Positions 45,836-54,664 of a stretch of 64,000 nt of DNA are shown here, in pieces (the first letter of the stretch is position 1; the number at the start of each line of letters is the position of its first letter). Source of the stretch: Pseudomonas sp. 31-12. GTDB taxonomy: Bacteria > Pseudomonadota > Gammaproteobacteria > Pseudomonadales > Pseudomonadaceae. The notes under the pieces are model-generated. The model ran no database searches, was not told the origin of the DNA, and worked only from the letters and a program-made list of their open reading frames with translations. Position numbers and translations under genes: made by a program. The stretch is taken from positions 1,240,001 to 1,304,000 of the forward strand of contig NZ_CP029482.1 in the NCBI RefSeq assembly GCF_003151075.1. The letters run 5' to 3'.

Positions 45836-48265
45836 ATGAAGTCCAGGGCAAAATCGGGTTCGGTCAAACAGTGGTTGGGTGCTTCTGCACTGTGTATCTC
45901 GGCGTTGGCCTTGCTGCCATCGAGCGTCGCATCCGCCGCTGAGGCGGCCAACACGCAGCCGCTTACGCAGTTCAGTTTTGCTATCGCTGCCAAGCCGCTG
46001 CCCCAGGCCTTGAGCGACTTCAGCAGGGTCACTGGCATCAGCGTGGTCTACACCGATGAAGCGCCGTACGGTCTCACCGCCCCGGCGGTCAATGGCCAGT
46101 TGAACGCCGAGCAGGCCCTGCAGCGTTTGCTCGGCGGTTCGGGTTTCACCTTCCGCCGTAGCGACGCCCACACCCTGGTGCTTGAACCGCTGCCCACCGC
46201 CGGCACGTTGAATCTGGGCACCACCACCATCAACTCGGTGGCCGATCAAACCATGAGCTATCAGCCGCCGCCCACCAGTTCGGTGATGCGCTCGTCGGCC
46301 TTGCTCCAGGAAATCCCGCAGACCGTCAACGTCATCCCGGCCCAGGTGATTCGCGATCAGGCACCGCGCAATCTGGATGACGCGCTGGCCAACGTCAGCG
46401 GCATCACTCAGGGCAACACGCTGGCGAGCACCCAGGATTCGGTGATGACCCGCGGCTTCGGCGACAACCGCAACGGCTCGATCATGCGCGACGGCATGCC
46501 GATCGTGCAGGGCCGAGGCATGAACGCGACCGTGGACCGGGTCGAAGTGCTCAAGGGCCCGGCCTCGCTGCTGTACGGTATTCAGGACCCGGGCGGCGTG
46601 GTCAACATGGTCAGCAAGAAACCCGAACTGGAGCAATACAACGCCCTGACGCTGCGCGGTTCGACCTACGGCGACGGTAAAAACGGCAGCGGCGGCGGCC
46701 TCGACAGCACCGGCGCCCTTGGTGATTCCGGTTTCGCTTACCGCATGGTGCTGGACCACGAAGACGAAGATTACTGGCGCAACTTCGGCACTCACCGCGA
46801 GACGCTGGTGGCGCCGTCGCTGGCTTGGTTCGGCGAAAGCACCAAGCTGTTGTTCTCCTACGAACACCGCGAGTTCCTGACCCCGTTCGACCGCGGCACG
46901 GTCATCGACCCGCGCACCAATCACCCGTTGGACATCTCGCGCAATGAGCGCTTGGACGAGCCGTTCAACAACATGGAAGGCCGCTCGGACCTGTACCACT
47001 TCGAGGCTGATCACGAGCTCAACGACAACTGGAACGCCCACTTCGGCTACAGCTGGAACCGTGAAACCTACGACGCCAGCCAAGTGCGCGTCACCGCCAT
47101 CGACACCCGACGCGGCACGCTGACCCGCAGCATGGACGGCACCCAGAACGCGATCAGCACCGACCGTTTCACCACCGCCAGCCTTGAAGGCAAGGTGAAC
47201 GCGCTGGGCATGCAGCATGACCTGGTGTTCGGCGTCGATGACGAATACCGCAAGATCTACCGCGAAGACCTGATCCGCCAGAGAAGCCTGAGCACCTTCA
47301 GCTACGTCAACCCGGTCTATGGCCGCGAGGTCGCCGGCACCACGGTCAGCCCGGCGGACAGCGCGCAGACCGATGAGCTGCGCAGCGATTCGATCTTCCT
47401 GCAGGACTCGATCCACCTCACCGATCAATGGATTTTCGTCGCGGGCGCACGCTTTCAGGAATACGACCAGTACGCCGGCAAAGGCGTGCCGTTCCAGGCC
47501 AACACCGACAGCAACGGCCAAAAGTGGGTACCGCGCGCCGGTCTGGTCTATCGCTTCACCGATGAACTGTCGTTCTACGGCAGCTACACCGAATCGTTCA
47601 AACCCAACTCGACCATCGCGCCATTGAGCGGCAGCAGCACCGTGCTCGACGGCAGCGTGGCGCCGGAAGAGGCCAAGTCCTGGGAACTCGGCGCCAAGCT
47701 CGACATGCCGGGCCGCGTGACCGGTAACGTCGCGCTGTTCGACATCAAGAAACGCAACGTGCTGGTGGCCAACTCCGAAGGTCCGGTGACGATCTACAGC
47801 GCCGCCGGCGAAGTGCGCTCCCGTGGTCTGGAAGTGGACTTGACCGGCCAGCTCAGCGATCGCTGGAGCATGATCGGCAGCTATGCCTACACCGACGCCG
47901 AAGTCACCGAAGACCCGGTTTACAAGGGCAAAAAACTGCAAAACGTCGCGAAGAACAGTGGCTCGTTGTCGGCGGTCTATGACTTCGGGACCATTGTCGG
48001 CGGCGATCAATTGCGGGTCGGTGCAGGCGCGCGGTATGTCGGCGAGCGGGCGGGTAATGCCGTCAACGATTTCGACCTGCCGAGCTACACCGTGGCCGAT
48101 GCCTTCGCGACCTACGACACCAAGGTTGAAGGGCAGAAGGTCAAGTTTCAGCTCAACGTGAAGAACCTGTTTGACCGCACGTACTACACCTCGGCGGCGA
48201 GCCGGTTCTTTGTGTCGATGGGGGATTCGCGTCAGATTTCACTGTCCAGCACGTTGGAGTTCTGA
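45836..48265 (+). CDS. TonB-dependent siderophore receptor with signalling domain (FoxA/FiuA-like)
   Basis: An 809-residue outer-membrane receptor. The signal peptide ends near residue 34 (VASAAEA). An STN domain follows (about 46-118, FSFAIAAKPLPQALSDFSRV), then the TonB-box/plug start (SALLQEIPQTVNVIPAQVIR; VEVLKGPASLLYGIQDPGG) and a barrel ending in SLSSTLEF. The sequence type resembles hydroxamate siderophore receptors such as FoxA and FiuA, but I cannot name the ligand. The signalling domain ties it to the sigma/anti-sigma pair directly upstream. A weakly Fur-like AT-rich stretch is seen near 45730-45750. Confidence 0.88.
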   Translation: MKSRAKSGSVKQWLGASALCISALALLPSSVASAAEAANTQPLTQFSFAIAAKPLPQALSDFSRVTGISVVYTDEAPYGLTAPAVNGQLNAEQALQRLLGGSGFTFRRSDAHTLVLEPLPTAGTLNLGTTTINSVADQTMSYQPPPTSSVMRSSALLQEIPQTVNVIPAQVIRDQAPRNLDDALANVSGITQGNTLASTQDSVMTRGFGDNRNGSIMRDGMPIVQGRGMNATVDRVEVLKGPASLLYGIQDPGGVVNMVSKKPELEQYNALTLRGSTYGDGKNGSGGGLDSTGALGDSGFAYRMVLDHEDEDYWRNFGTHRETLVAPSLAWFGESTKLLFSYEHREFLTPFDRGTVIDPRTNHPLDISRNERLDEPFNNMEGRSDLYHFEADHELNDNWNAHFGYSWNRETYDASQVRVTAIDTRRGTLTRSMDGTQNAISTDRFTTASLEGKVNALGMQHDLVFGVDDEYRKIYREDLIRQRSLSTFSYVNPVYGREVAGTTVSPADSAQTDELRSDSIFLQDSIHLTDQWIFVAGARFQEYDQYAGKGVPFQANTDSNGQKWVPRAGLVYRFTDELSFYGSYTESFKPNSTIAPLSGSSTVLDGSVAPEEAKSWELGAKLDMPGRVTGNVALFDIKKRNVLVANSEGPVTIYSAAGEVRSRGLEVDLTGQLSDRWSMIGSYAYTDAEVTEDPVYKGKKLQNVAKNSGSLSAVYDFGTIVGGDQLRVGAGARYVGERAGNAVNDFDLPSYTVADAFATYDTKVEGQKVKFQLNVKNLFDRTYYTSAASRFFVSMGDSRQISLSSTLEF

Positions 48266-48285
48266 CCGAAAACCGCGTCATCGTT

Positions 48286-48354
48286 CTTCGCGAGCAAGCC
48301 CGCTCCCACAGGGAAACGCATTCCAAATGTGGGAGCGGGCTTGCTCGCGAAAGC
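48286..48354. repeat. REP pair (inverted)
   Basis: TTCGCGAGCAAGCCCGCTCC and its inverted copy about 35 bp further on, between the convergent receptor and AraC genes. Confidence 0.85.
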
Positions 48355-48383
48355 GGCCTCCCAGCCACTGCAGATCTGCAGTT

Positions 48384-49259
48384 CTAACGCAAAAACGCCT
48401 GACGATATTCCCCAGGCGTCCCACCCAAAACCTGCCGAAACCGATTGGTGAAATGACTTGCACTGGCAAACCCGCACGCCAATGCAATCTCCCCCAGAGG
48501 CTGCGAAGTCGAACGCAACAACTCCTGCGCCCGACTCAATCGCCGCGCCAACACATACTGATGCGGCGGCAAGCCAAAGCTCTCCCGGAACATCCGCGCG
48601 AAATGATATTCCGACAGCGCACACAGCGCCGCCAATTGACCCAGGCTGATCGCCTCGGCCAATTGATTGTCGATGAACTCCACCAACTGCCGCCGCTGAT
48701 GCGCCGCCAGTCCACCCTTGAGCCGCAAGCCCTCACGCATCCCGACCTGGCCGAGCAACACGTGGCTGAGCATTTCGTGAGCGAGGCTGCTGGTGAGCAA
48801 GCGCTCGCCGGGTTCGTCCCAGTTGAGCGTGAGCATCTGCCGAAAGCGCCGGGCTTGTGCCGGGTCATCAAGAAAAGTCGCTTCGCGCAATTGCAGTTCG
48901 CGCGGCTCGCGGTCCAGCAGCGTGACGCAGCCGAGGGCGAATTGCTCGGGGCTGAAATACACGTGGGCCAGGCGAATGTCGCCGTTGATTACCCAGCCTG
49001 ACTGATGCTCGGCCGGCAGGATGCACAGCTTGTCCGGGCCGCCCTTGGTGCCGGGCTGGTCGCGACGGAAAGTGCCGGTGCCGCCGGCGATGTAGCAGGA
49101 CAAGGTGTGGTGGCTTGGCGCCTCATAGTCCTGGGCATCGTGATGGTTGCTCCACAAGGCTGCAGCCATGCCGTCACCGAGCTCGGCGCTGTGCTCGAGG
49201 CGAGCATTGGGCGAGCGGTTGAGGGCTTGAAAGACTTGCAGGGTTTCCAGTGCGGGCAT
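48384..49259 (-). CDS. AraC-family transcriptional regulator
   Basis: A 291-residue regulator with an N-terminal cupin-like sensor region (SHHTLSCYIAGGTGTFRR; SGWVINGDIRLAHVYFSPEQ) and the C-terminal AraC DNA-binding domain with two helix-turn-helix units (LAALCALSEYHFARMFRESF; LGEIALACGFASASHFTNRF), ending GGTPGEYRQAF. The start at 49259 follows GGAGAAAG. It is divergent from the DMT transporter gene, which may be a target. It converges with the siderophore receptor gene but shows no specific link with iron (PchR-like features are not evident). Confidence 0.82.
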   Translation of the reverse strand: MPALETLQVFQALNRSPNARLEHSAELGDGMAAALWSNHHDAQDYEAPSHHTLSCYIAGGTGTFRRDQPGTKGGPDKLCILPAEHQSGWVINGDIRLAHVYFSPEQFALGCVTLLDREPRELQLREATFLDDPAQARRFRQMLTLNWDEPGERLLTSSLAHEMLSHVLLGQVGMREGLRLKGGLAAHQRRQLVEFIDNQLAEAISLGQLAALCALSEYHFARMFRESFGLPPHQYVLARRLSRAQELLRSTSQPLGEIALACGFASASHFTNRFRQVLGGTPGEYRQAFLR

Positions 49260-52599: not shown

Positions 52600-52975
52600 A
52601 TTGTGGGAGCTGGCCTGCCAGCGATGGCGGCCCGACAGCCGACCAATATCTTGCAGGTATACACCAAACCCCTGTGGGAGCTGGCCTGCCAGCGATGGCG
52701 GCCTGACAGCCGACCAATATCTTGCAGGTATACGCCGAACCCCTGCGGGAGCTGGCCTGCCAGCGATGGCGGCCTGACAGCCGACCAATTTCTTGCAGGT
52801 GAACACCAAACCCTGTGGGAGCTGGCTTGCCTGCGATGGCGGCCTGACAGCCGATCAATCTCTTGCAGATGTACGCCGAACCCTTGTAGGAGTGAGCCTG
52901 CTCGCGATGGCGGAGTGTCAGACGACATCAATGCTGGATGTCAGACCGCCATCGCGGGCAAGCCCGGCTCCTACA
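52600..52975. repeat. Tandem REP array with 71-bp period
   Basis: Four units carry GGGAGCTGGCCTGCCAGCGA (GGGAGC at 52605, 52676, 52747 and 52817; steps of 71, 71 and 70) joined by the spacer CTGACAGCCGACCAATATCT. A fifth, variant unit (AGGAGTGAGCCTGCTCGCGA) lies one period on and is paired with an inverted copy ending near 52975. The corresponding place in the second duplication copy (53790-53958) holds only one spacer unit. Confidence 0.85.
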
Positions 52976-52979
52976 GGTA

Positions 52980-53357
52980 TTAGCTGTGTGGCGCAGGTTT
53001 TGGTACTGCGACGTTATCCAGCATCCGGTTCGCTGCCAGTTCGGCCAGCATTACGATCTGTTGAATGGCCATTGCCTTGTGCCGGTGCGGGCCTTCCAGA
53101 TAGTCCGCGAAGTCGCTCGCCATCACGCTGGCCTGGGCCAATGACTCGCAGGTGTGGGCCAGCAGGTCTTCGTCTTTGATGTCCGGTGCGATCAAAAACA
53201 TCGTGCTGGGTTTGCGGTTGGCAGGGGATTTGAGGGCGGCGGGGTTGAGGTAGTGATCCAGCGCGCGTTCAGCGGCGTCGTGGAATTTTTTGGAATCGAG
53301 GGATTCGTAGGGGGAAACGTCATCGGTTTCCGGAGGATTCGGAGTTTCTTTAATCAT
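52980..53357 (-). CDS. DUF6124 family protein, copy 1
   Basis: A 125-residue protein: MIKETPNPPETDDVSPYESL at the start, a Pro/Ser-rich link, then helical segments with AERALDHYLNP, TMFLIAPDIKDEDLLAHTCE and IQQIVMLAELAANRMLDNV. This is the Pseudomonas DUF6124 family (formerly grouped with DUF3077), of unknown function, small and cytosolic. It is nearly identical to the copy at 53972. The difference lies mainly in two residues near position 26 and the four extra C-terminal residues APHS. An AAGGATC site precedes the ATG. A folded RNA leader lies directly upstream. Confidence 0.85.
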   Translation of the reverse strand: MIKETPNPPETDDVSPYESLDSKKFHDAAERALDHYLNPAALKSPANRKPSTMFLIAPDIKDEDLLAHTCESLAQASVMASDFADYLEGPHRHKAMAIQQIVMLAELAANRMLDNVAVPKPAPHS

Positions 53358-53494
53358 TTGGCAAAGATCCTTAGAGTCGAGGAGTTGCCACTTTTCGTTT
53401 TCCAGACGAAAGGGTGGCAGCTGTACGCGGACTGGAAAAACCGAGAAAGGATCAAACCCGGCAGACCCGAAGGTCTCCCACGTACAGCCGCCAT
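53354..53494 (-). CDS. Possible upstream ORF in the DUF6124 leader, copy 1
   Basis: A 46-codon frame starting MAAVRGRPSGLPGL and containing CHPFVWK. Its TGA overlaps the DUF6124 ATG (ATGA). Copy 2 has a corresponding frame with the same start and CHPFAWK motif. No good ribosome-binding site precedes it, and the shared residues are explained by the conserved RNA stem, so translation is doubtful. Confidence 0.2.
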   Translation of the reverse strand: MAAVRGRPSGLPGLILSRFFQSAYSCHPFVWKTKSGNSSTLRIFAK

Positions 53495-53495
53495 A
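53390..53495 (-). promoter_or_regulatory. Structured RNA leader of DUF6124 copy 1
   Basis: Minus-strand arms 53478-53492 (GGCGGCTGTACGTGG) and 53416-53430 (CCGCGTACAGCTGCC) pair over 15 of 15 positions. Inside is a perfect AGACC-TTCG-GGTCT hairpin (53463-53476), and between stem and gene a second hairpin CTTTCG/CGAAAAG (53391-53412). All elements recur in copy 2 with compensating changes. No known riboswitch or leader name comes to mind. Confidence 0.7.
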
Positions 53496-53550
53496 ACTCA
53501 AATCGCGGTGCTGAAAAAGCGCCGCATTATGTCATGCGCTGTGATCCTTC

Positions 53551-53700
53551 TTCGGGTTTTCCAGACCCGATCGCTGAAATGCCAGCGACCCACAAAGCCT
53601 ACCCATTTCCCGTCCGACCCAACAACCGACAGAACCCGTCGGAAACATTCCCCAAAATCACCGCGTCTGTAGGACTGTGAAATCAGTTCGCCACCCGACC
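53551..53700 (-). promoter_or_regulatory. Conserved upstream region of DUF6124 copy 1
   Basis: About 120 bases (53581-53699) are almost identical to 54568-54681 and precede the leader, so they probably carry the promoter. A small hairpin CGGGT/ACCCG (53553-53569) corresponds to CAGGT/GCCTG in copy 2. The last 17 bases equal the 3' end of the LysR gene at 54665 and are a duplicated remnant of it. Confidence 0.55.
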
Positions 53701-53710
53701 CACCCAGAAG

Positions 53711-53790
53711 GGGCGGGCAGATCAAGATCAAAAGCTGCAGGCGAGCTAACGCTCGGCCTGTTGAGTGGTGAGAGGCGGGTGTATGCCGCG
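53711..53790. repeat. Dispersed intergenic repeat, tail copy
   Basis: GGCAGATCAAGATCAAAAGC and GGCGAGCTAACGCTCGGCCT repeat the tail of the block at 52262-52598. Here the tail directly follows the LysR remnant, marking the junction of the tandem duplication. Confidence 0.7.
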
Positions 53791-53793
53791 CTC

Positions 53794-53958
53794 TTGTAGG
53801 AGCGAGGCTTGCCCGCGAAGGCGGCCTGACAGCCGACCAATCTCTTGCAGATGTACCCAATTCAATTGTGGGAGCGGGCTTGCTCGCGAAGGCGGTGGAT
53901 CAGTCGATATCAATGTTGAATGACCCGCTTTCGCGAGCAAGCCCGCTCCCACATTGGG
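53794..53958. repeat. REP cluster (one spacer unit plus inverted pair)
   Basis: One GTAGGAGCGAGGCTTGCCCG unit, the spacer CTGACAGCCGACCAATCTCT, then an inverted pair with GTGGGAGCGGGCTTGCTCGC at 53870 and its inverse ending near 53955. It is the equivalent of the longer array at 52600-52975. Confidence 0.8.
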
Positions 53959-53971
53959 ATTAGCCGTGCGG

Positions 53972-54337
53972 CTAAGGTTTTGGTATGGCGACGTTATCCA
54001 GCATCCGGTTTGCGGCCAGTTCAGCCAGCATGACGATCTGTTGAATGGCCATTGCCTTGTGCCGGTGCGGGCCTTCCAGATAGTCCGCGAAGTCGCTCGC
54101 CATCACGCTGGCTTGGGCCAATGACTCGCAGGTGTGGGCCAGCAGGTCTTCGTCTTTGATGTCCGGTGCGATCAAAAACATCGTGCTGGGTTTGCGGTTG
54201 GCAGGGGATTTGAGGGCGGCGGGGTTGAGGTAGTGATCCAGCGCGCGTTCGGCGGCTTCGTTGAGTTTTTTGGAATCGAGGGATTCGTAAGGGGAAACGT
54301 CGTCGGTTTCCGGAGGGTTCGGTGTTTCTTTGATCAT
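53972..54337 (-). CDS. DUF6124 family protein, copy 2
   Basis: A 121-residue protein that matches copy 1 almost residue for residue (SKKLNEAAERALDHYL here against SKKFHDAAERALDHYL) and ends IPKP without the extra APHS. Differences between the copies are few, and many are silent, so the duplication is recent or the copies are kept alike by gene conversion. The gene follows the same type of RNA leader, but with a poorer ribosome-binding site. Function is unknown. Confidence 0.85.
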   Translation of the reverse strand: MIKETPNPPETDDVSPYESLDSKKLNEAAERALDHYLNPAALKSPANRKPSTMFLIAPDIKDEDLLAHTCESLAQASVMASDFADYLEGPHRHKAMAIQQIVMLAELAANRMLDNVAIPKP

Positions 54338-54358
54338 AAAAAATTACTCGATATGGGA

Positions 54359-54475
54359 TTAATCGAGCTGCCATTTTCGTTTCCAAGCGAAAGGGTGGCA
54401 GCCATGCGCGGTCTGGAAAACCGGATATCCCACCAAAACCGGCAGACCCGAAGGTCTCCCGCGCACAGCCGCCAT
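54359..54475 (-). CDS. Possible upstream ORF in the DUF6124 leader, copy 2
   Basis: A 38-codon frame (MAAVRGRPSGLPVLVGYPVF, later CHPFAWKRKW) that ends 21 bases before the DUF6124 start and so lacks the stop-start overlap of copy 1. The ribosome-binding site is absent. It is listed because the first twelve residues are shared with copy 1. Confidence 0.2.
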   Translation of the reverse strand: MAAVRGRPSGLPVLVGYPVFQTAHGCHPFAWKRKWQLD

Positions 54476-54476
54476 A
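54370..54476 (-). promoter_or_regulatory. Structured RNA leader of DUF6124 copy 2
   Basis: Minus-strand arms 54459-54473 (GGCGGCTGTGCGCGG) and 54397-54411 (CCGCGCATGGCTGCC) pair at all 15 positions although they differ from copy 1 at several. The same AGACC-TTCG-GGTCT hairpin lies inside, and a TTTCG/CGAAA hairpin sits on the gene side. The part from 54480 to 54664 matches the copy 1 upstream region and holds no gene. Confidence 0.7.
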
Positions 54477-54664
54477 ACAAGGAATTGCGTGCAGAAAAAA
54501 GCGCCGCAGTATGCCATGTGCTGTGATGGGAATATCAGGTTTCCAAGCCTGGCCGCTGATTTTGCAGCGACCCACAAAGCCTACCCATTTCCCGTCCGAC
54601 CCAACAACCGACAGAACCCGTCGGAAACATTCCCCAAAATCACCGCGTCTGTAGGACGGTGAAA

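Follow-up and report, generated by a model that had tools for sequence, protein, structure and literature searches.

C4 antisense RNA cassettes of the phage P1 immunity type in front of DUF6124 genes look largely self-addressed in Pseudomonas

Two genes of the orphan family DUF6124 stand in tandem on the minus strand of a 64,000-nucleotide (nt) stretch of the Pseudomonas sp. 31-12 chromosome (contig NZ_CP029482.1; hereafter the window), and the RNA leader in front of each is, by its sequence, a C4 antisense RNA of the kind that governs immunity in phage P1. We refer to the upstream leader and gene as copy A and to the downstream pair as copy B. With 55 C4 matches in this one genome, 52 of them over the Rfam cut-off (150 of 1903 first-look candidates were scored), the data suggest repeated copying of a phage immunity device on the chromosome. 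The best explanation, to which we give a probability of about 0.8, is a self-contained cassette of the P1 immI type in which C4 blocks translation of its own DUF6124 gene, and the cassettes of this chromosome look, from the way their sequences vary together, like largely self-addressed switches.

The RNA family itself is already known, C4 having been worked out in phages P1 and P7 (as cited in PMC5320573). What is new is the scale and the self-specificity, and the presence of DUF6124 in the anti-repressor slot on host chromosomes. Four Pseudomonas chromosomes hold 36-55 C4 copies, nearly all differing in their specificity loop, and in both genomes examined for it these loops mostly match their own gene; this would give a common genus one of the largest self-addressed antisense switch sets known to us. 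An orphan family is turned into a testable question, namely what needs to be silenced and by what it is switched on, and some 50 natural antisense pairs are offered for measuring the evolution of RNA-RNA specificity. A literature search returned nothing on DUF6124, no report of genome-wide self-addressed C4 cassettes with DUF6124 and no paper linking C4 antisense with DUF6124 or with DUF3077, a second family found behind C4, a weak negative since supplements and most subscription papers lay outside its scope.

Identity and anatomy of the two leaders

Compared with Rfam, both leaders exceed the 45-bit cut-off of RF01695 (C4 antisense RNA), copy A at 54391-54479 with 71.5 bits (E 5.9e-12) and copy B at 53410-53498 with 71.4 bits (E 6.4e-12), both on the minus strand. 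The initial annotation, made from the letters of the sequence, had known of no named family for this element; the match rules out an RNA without a name. Upstream of copy A lies, in addition, the c4-a1b1 target element RF03163 (54532-54584; 53.0 bits, cut-off 46.7), and the like element upstream of copy B (53549-53602; 42.9 bits) falls below that cut-off, though its a1 and b1 sites pair. Membership of isrK (RF01394) was tried and rejected, both copies lying under its cut-off of 50 bits (48.2 for copy A, 23.1 for copy B).

The fold described in the initial annotation was borne out. The outer stem keeps 15 of 15 pairs in both copies (53478-53492 with 53416-53430; 54459-54473 with 54397-54411), with the exchanges between copies as claimed (pair 10 from A-U to G-C, pair 7 from U-A to U-G, pair 8 from G-C to G-U and pair 13 from U-G to C-G), and the inner hairpin with its UUCG loop is present. 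The A-U/G-C exchange claimed for an upstream hairpin was seen by eye in the a1/b1 element, whose second hairpin carries it, and the sequence between the stem arms, which contains the b' loop, is indeed the least conserved region. For neither element did any of 200 dinucleotide shuffles fold as well (z -5.4 and -3.5), and the minimum-energy fold of copy B has the Rfam C4 shape.

The window's two genes arose by tandem duplication of a unit of 980-982 base pairs, the last LysR codons included. Taken by themselves they would therefore be weak evidence, and the case is carried by the other copies. In an alignment of 63 C4 copies (52 from this genome and 11 of the 35 from a second genome, G010), 95.2% of cells are paired and 19 of 25 pairs show both-sided changes; 18 of these fall among the 20 pairs of helices 1 and 2, and helix 3 does less well (1 of 5 pairs, 86.7% paired). 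With the partner shifted by 1-3 columns no more than 44.3% of cells remain paired, and none of 500 shuffles, which do not correct for relatedness, reaches any of five covariation measures. Covariation thus favours structure and supports the earlier proposal of a structure under selection, one that most likely controls the DUF6124 genes. Since the duplication the RNA has diverged more than the gene, identity being 83% over 99 nt in the C4 region, compared with 96% over 300 nt of the coding part (and 92% over 144 nt upstream). Such divergence of the C4 region (53399-53497 and 54380-54478) is what would be expected if specificity diversifies or cassettes recombine.

Each window cassette presents the same order of parts: promoter-like hexamers, a1/b1, C4, a2, b2 and DUF6124, whose start codon lies about 50 nt past C4. 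Copy A, read along the minus strand, opens with a -35-like hexamer TTGTTG (54602-54607) and, after a spacer of 18 nt, a predicted -10-like hexamer TAGGCT (54578-54583). There follow the a1 site TTGGAAA (54540-54546), complementary to a', and the b1 site GATATTCCCATC (54525-54536; duplex with b' of -17.8 kcal/mol); within C4, sequence and duplex computation place the b' loop at 54425-54434 and the a' stretch TTTTCCAG at 54413-54420. Past C4 come a2, again TTGGAAA (54380-54386; -6.8 kcal/mol with a'), b2, ATCCCAT (54353-54359; -10.9 kcal/mol with b', 16-22 nt before the ATG), and the DUF6124 gene of 121 amino acids (53972-54337; PF19619 75.2 bits, cut-off 27).

Copy B repeats the arrangement with the -35-like TTGTTG at 53620-53625 and a predicted -10-like TAGGCT at 53596-53601, followed by a1, CTGGAAAA (53557-53564, from sequence and duplex computation), and b1, AAGGATC (53543-53549; -16.5 kcal/mol with b'). 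The same means place its b' core GATCCTT at 53447-53453 and its a' stretch TTTTCCAG at 53432-53439. Its a2 site CTGGAAAA (53398-53405) is the full complement of a', and its b2 site AAGGATC (53366-53372; -13.8 kcal/mol), which includes the Shine-Dalgarno sequence, is the full complement of GATCCTT; the gene encodes 125 amino acids (52980-53357, ATG at 53357; PF19619 75 bits, cut-off 27).

In 80 of 87 cassettes (52 from this genome and 35 from G010) the a1 hairpin was found by pattern, and the upstream consensus of these 80, drawn with no shuffle control, is TTGTGC-17 nt-TAnnnT followed by the hairpin. A sigma-70-like promoter of this form would start the transcript at the a1 hairpin; it lies upstream of the element, and its position would place the start ahead of the stem and not downstream of it, in keeping with the earlier proposal. 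The ends of C4 carry a sequence signature resembling RNase P sites: 5' ends read TGG or CGG in 86 of 87 cassettes, and 3' ends CC[AGT]CC in 80.

Matching between C4 loops and their own gene leaders

The strongest evidence for antisense action is covariation between b' and the gene leader, which are separate RNA segments. The b' loop differs in all 52 loci compared in this genome and in 33 of 35 in the second, and a' falls into 29 and 18 types respectively. Duplex energies were computed for every C4 against the four sites of every cassette, covering 52 of 55 loci here (51 over the Rfam cut-off, plus L074) and 35 of 36 in G010. The combined energy over the four sites is -50.1 for own pairs against -35.4 for others in this genome, and -51.5 against -37.4 in the second; at each site, in either genome, the own pairing is the stronger (0 of 5000 permutations each). 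By all four sites a C4 finds its best target in its own cassette in 45 of 52 and 27 of 35 cases, and by the two leader sites only in 29 of 52 and 20 of 35. As a guard against shared ancestry, b' loops with a common 6-mer were removed, which left 49 of the 87; among these the pairing of b' with the Shine-Dalgarno region is -12.8 for own and -7.8 for other leaders (0 of 10000 permutations; own loops shuffled, -8.0), the own leader being best in 21 and among the top three in 32. The helix formed with the own b' covers at least 4 nt of the zone from -14 to -5 in 37 of the 47 own loci whose start codon lies 25-75 nt past C4. Because b' and the Shine-Dalgarno site change together between copies, the cassettes, about 50 in number, would be largely self-addressed switches and not one shared regulon.

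Several results weigh against this reading. Taken singly, the sites are far from unique, which makes cross-talk possible: the own Shine-Dalgarno site ranks first for b' in just 19 of 52 and 20 of 35 loci, the own a2 for a' in just 9 of 52 and 3 of 35, and with broader windows the own leader ranks first for b' in just 9 of 52, the direction being the same and the ranks weaker. Copy A is the less convincing of the window's two examples. When the 52 cassettes are ranked by the leader sites, its own comes 20th; copy A retains a'/a2 and has a strong b1, but b2 is weaker and lies off the core of a poor Shine-Dalgarno sequence. Its minimum-energy fold retains the outer stem and the UUCG hairpin with the third helix re-paired, which lowered our confidence slightly. 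When the site extraction was run on P1 it recovered b'-b1, b'-b2 and a'-a1, and the automatic a'-leader duplex missed the annotated a2, though a2 has the same seven letters as a1. Nor is the association with C4 complete: 35 of the 41 DUF6124 domains of this genome lie 101-299 nt behind a same-strand C4, and the remaining six have none within 500 nt (five of them were scanned, and none was found). In named genomes C4 precedes 77 of 80 DUF6124 loci, ending as a rule about 50 nt before the gene, and for two of the three exceptions the available upstream stretch is too short; this count is biased upwards because those loci are the closest relatives found.

Mechanism, precedents and rival explanations

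In the mechanism we favour, a transcript would start at the a1/b1 hairpins from the sigma-70-like promoter and run through C4 into DUF6124. Host RNase P, to judge from P1 and from the conserved ends, would cut at the GG that opens the outer stem and release a C4 RNA of about 77-80 nt, whose b' loop would pair with b2, over or beside the Shine-Dalgarno sequence of the DUF6124 message from its own cassette, and whose a' would pair with a2 just past C4, the two contacts jointly blocking translation. The upstream a1/b1 would bind the same C4, serving either as an additional target or as a decoy that sets the amount of free C4, and DUF6124 would remain silent unless transcription exceeds the supply of C4 or C4 is titrated. 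The pairing sites are there to be read in the sequence; the repression we infer from P1.

The P1 record supports the comparison in some detail, with its promoter followed by a1 at 48255, b1 at 48269, C4 at 48343-48419, a2 at 48423, b2 at 48452 and the start of icd at 48470. The site order of P1/P7 immI (c4-icd-ant) is that of the window cassettes at similar distances, and in P1, as in the window copies, b' is the loop of the third helix and pairs with b1 and b2. P1 differs in having icd-ant downstream, whereas here the gene is DUF6124 (elsewhere DUF3077, a third small family or Bro-N), the setting is chromosomal and the copies run to tens. A C4 in front of a phage anti-repressor, the P1 arrangement, is absent from the window, where the gene is DUF6124, and Bro-N follows C4 at 3 of 53 loci elsewhere in the genome.

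For multiplicity, the nearest precedent we have seen is a group of 21 C4-like RNAs in one genome, the Group 1 small RNAs of Acinetobacter baumannii AB5075 (PMC5320573). These too come in many copies and vary in one loop, and they are processed from longer transcripts at GG, as is predicted here; no downstream target of their own is described in the portion of that paper cited here, whereas the present C4s precede small genes and match their own leaders. The variable loop, there named a' (7-11), may or may not correspond to b' as used here. In Salmonella, the isrK-orf45-anrP region of Gifsy-1 offers an upstream hairpin RNA, a processed RNA and a downstream anti-repressor gene, a layout resembling that proposed here; IsrK, however, activates translation of orf45, C4 is not named in the cited part (PMC4825925), and both window copies lie below the isrK cut-off. 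The CI RNA of phage P4 is, like the predicted C4, a processed antisense RNA with targets, seqA and seqC, upstream and downstream of itself, but it ends transcription (PMC4825925), whereas here the predicted contact falls on the ribosome-binding site and only a minority of cassettes have a long T-run.

These precedents bear directly on how the cassettes might otherwise be explained. The initial annotation had tentatively proposed a cis-regulatory element. Regulation is most likely, but the homology to RF01695 and the pairing sites make the leaders a probable source of processed antisense RNA and not a simple cis leader. A purely cis-acting or riboswitch-like leader with no separate antisense RNA would suit an element of stable fold in the 5' leader, but we hold it to be most improbable, for there is a full C4 match with both target sets, the loops vary in step with separate complementary sites, and the C4 part is processed out in P1 and Acinetobacter (PMC5320573). 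A rather better case, though still an unlikely one, can be made for C4 acting mainly on transcription in the manner of P4 CI, by an early stop that would make short IsrK-like a1/b1 RNAs the usual product and the translation block secondary. The a1/b1 element sits at the presumed transcript start, it pairs with C4 no less strongly than the leader does (mean duplex energies of -27.4 and -22.7 in this genome, the a1/b1 value being over a longer stretch), copy A is nearly an isrK, and IsrK of Gifsy-1 is a terminated RNA, likened by its authors to P4 SeqA/CI, with a processed stable RNA after it (PMC4825925). Yet a run of at least five T within 80 nt before C4 occurs in just 16 of 52 cassettes here and 5 of 35 in the second genome (T-runs alone were counted), and pairing over the Shine-Dalgarno zone is more widespread (37 of 47).

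Two further explanations concern the reason for the cassettes' existence. They might be addiction modules resembling type I toxin-antitoxin systems, with a harmful DUF6124 and C4 as its antitoxin, spreading and multiplying without benefit to the cell. The union of an antisense RNA and a small gene in one unit, in many copies, is what such a module would look like, as is insertion at a host gene junction in some species and not others; one prophage locus has a match to the toxin ParE, and C4 of P1 controls icd, annotated as an inhibitor of cell division. Against these must be set that C4 lies on the same strand as its target and presumably in the same transcript, unlike an independent antitoxin gene, that no toxin family matched the window proteins and no PADLOC match was found in the 53 proteins downstream of C4, and that six of the 41 DUF6124 domains lack a C4 nearby; we regard this possibility as rather doubtful. 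Decay of functionless prophage remnants would fit an RNA family best known from phages and a few broken copies (L053 with a stop; L043 and L066 with partial domains), but is very unlikely: the ratio of non-synonymous to synonymous substitution (dN/dS) of the copy B gene is 0.06-0.14 against five close relatives, which indicates purifying selection, though the median among paralogues of this genome is 0.45 (304 of 351 pairs); compensating change keeps structure and pairing; and the flanks seen are mostly ordinary host genes.

Returning to the translation-blocking cassette, the genes behind C4 give some hint of its purpose. The 53 downstream proteins of this genome comprise 32 DUF6124, 5 DUF3077 and 3 Bro-N members (L025, L054 and L074) and 13 with none of these; the starts of the L022, L026 and L066 reading frames may not be the true codon. 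Anti-repressor PHROGs match three of the proteins, which we take to be the Bro-N three, so the slot occupied by icd-ant in P1 still holds anti-repressor-like genes at three loci here. The Bro-N protein of L054 starts with MxKxTPNPP, typical of DUF6124, as if the first codons were common to gene families. Eight members without a Pfam match (L030, L033, L034, L037, L062, L069, L070 and L071), grouped loosely and by eye, form the third small family. Homology between DUF6124, DUF3077 and this family was tried by alignment and is not significant (hhalign probabilities of 2.3, 0.2 and 0.2%, from thin alignments). The predicted DUF6124 fold is a C-terminal helical hairpin (62-85, 90-114) with a loose N-terminus (mean predicted local distance difference test score 72.8, predicted template modelling score 0.45); it has no match in the PDB at E of 0.001 or below, nor has the sequence at E 1, and we draw no function from it for that reason. 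None of the 53 proteins matches PADLOC at E 0.01.

Because the slot holds Bro-N at three loci and Icd/Ant in P1, DUF6124 may act in phage conflict or its control; an effector or regulator of this kind is our leading guess, with the addiction module as the main alternative. More speculatively, and as something of a long shot, the chromosome might hold a bank of about 50 separately keyed trip-wires, each C4 silencing one effector (DUF6124, DUF3077, Bro-N or the third family). Phage transcripts with matching a/b sequence would titrate one C4, the effector released would disturb the infection, and b' loops would diversify like recognition sequences under phage pressure, prophages carrying the same cassettes at tail-region sites, some beside defence genes.

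Distribution and genomic settings

C4 is widespread, and DUF6124 looks confined to, or centred on, Pseudomonas, as the following counts indicate. C4 was matched 36, 47 and 41 times in three further complete genomes, which encode 29, 43 and 38 DUF6124 domains respectively, and in a genus sample of 119 genomes, where the C4 tally for any one genome was capped at 33, C4 was matched in 110 and DUF6124 in 95. An order sample of 244 genomes yielded C4 in 36, across 19 of 112 genera (17 candidates scored per genome), and a class sample of 274, with few close relatives outside the genus, yielded DUF6124 in this genome only. Organism names, given for part of the 120 proteins listed among 2749 matches in a protein search, were all Pseudomonas, and 14 control genomes had neither C4 nor DUF6124. 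In this genome (near 6461770), the DUF6124 gene of L077 lies behind a c4-a1b1-like element (2231-2284 of the locus; 41.8 bits, cut-off 46.7) with no C4, and might for that reason be controlled in trans by other C4 copies.

Among viral sequences, 59 DUF6124 loci were found in IMG/VR, 54 of them with C4 by a model built in this analysis; many of the loci sit close to the end of a contig and might belong to flanking host DNA. Plasmid records had DUF6124 in 0 of 72,556, and phage records in 1 of 50,697, where the gene lies at the very edge of DVM-2008, next to prtR, and has a C4 in front of it; we take this record to be a tailocin. It also contains pieces of a group II intron (L109, 14526-15131). 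In six IMG/VR loci (L151, L154, L163, L172, L181 and L187) the cassette stands upstream of phage tail genes, with variable cargo; tail families were tested in L151 and the other five were judged from similar-looking translations. Ten genes of these six loci, searched with PADLOC, gave strong matches to Dsr1 (with a SIR2 domain) in L163, PDC-S51 in L172 and PDC-S06 in L154, a weak match to LmuA (4e-10) in L181 and none in L151 and L187. In L154 there is, besides, a match to ParE and, just under the cut-off, one to Phd/YefM. At several viral loci a second, weak C4-like match lies about 500 nt farther upstream than the first.

On the chromosome the flanks are mostly ordinary host genes (LysR, GGDEF/EAL, transporters, DsbA), two transposase PHROGs appearing with one member each; the scan covered 80 of 109 flanking reading frames and, among the matches listed, 25 of 46 PHROGs and 25 of 68 Pfam families. 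The window cassettes lie at a junction from LysR to hydroxyacid dehydrogenase, and of 19 such loci scanned in relatives, 5 have C4 and 14 have none, alignments of the two flanking genes lying just 49-280 nt apart in 11 of the 14. The five occupied junctions differ in their loops, two being like copy A, two like copy B and one a different cassette, so cassettes appear to come, go and be exchanged at one site.

Repeats spaced at about 70 nt follow the DUF6124 genes at 52602-52926 and 53796-53908, four of them consecutive and a fifth further on. Rfam rows with microRNA names at 53866-53953 were rejected as far below their cut-offs; they cover a palindrome, presumably a Pseudomonas REP (repetitive extragenic palindromic) element. 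An inverted repeat spans 53859-53961, and it and the spaced repeats may aid duplication or exchange of the cassettes.

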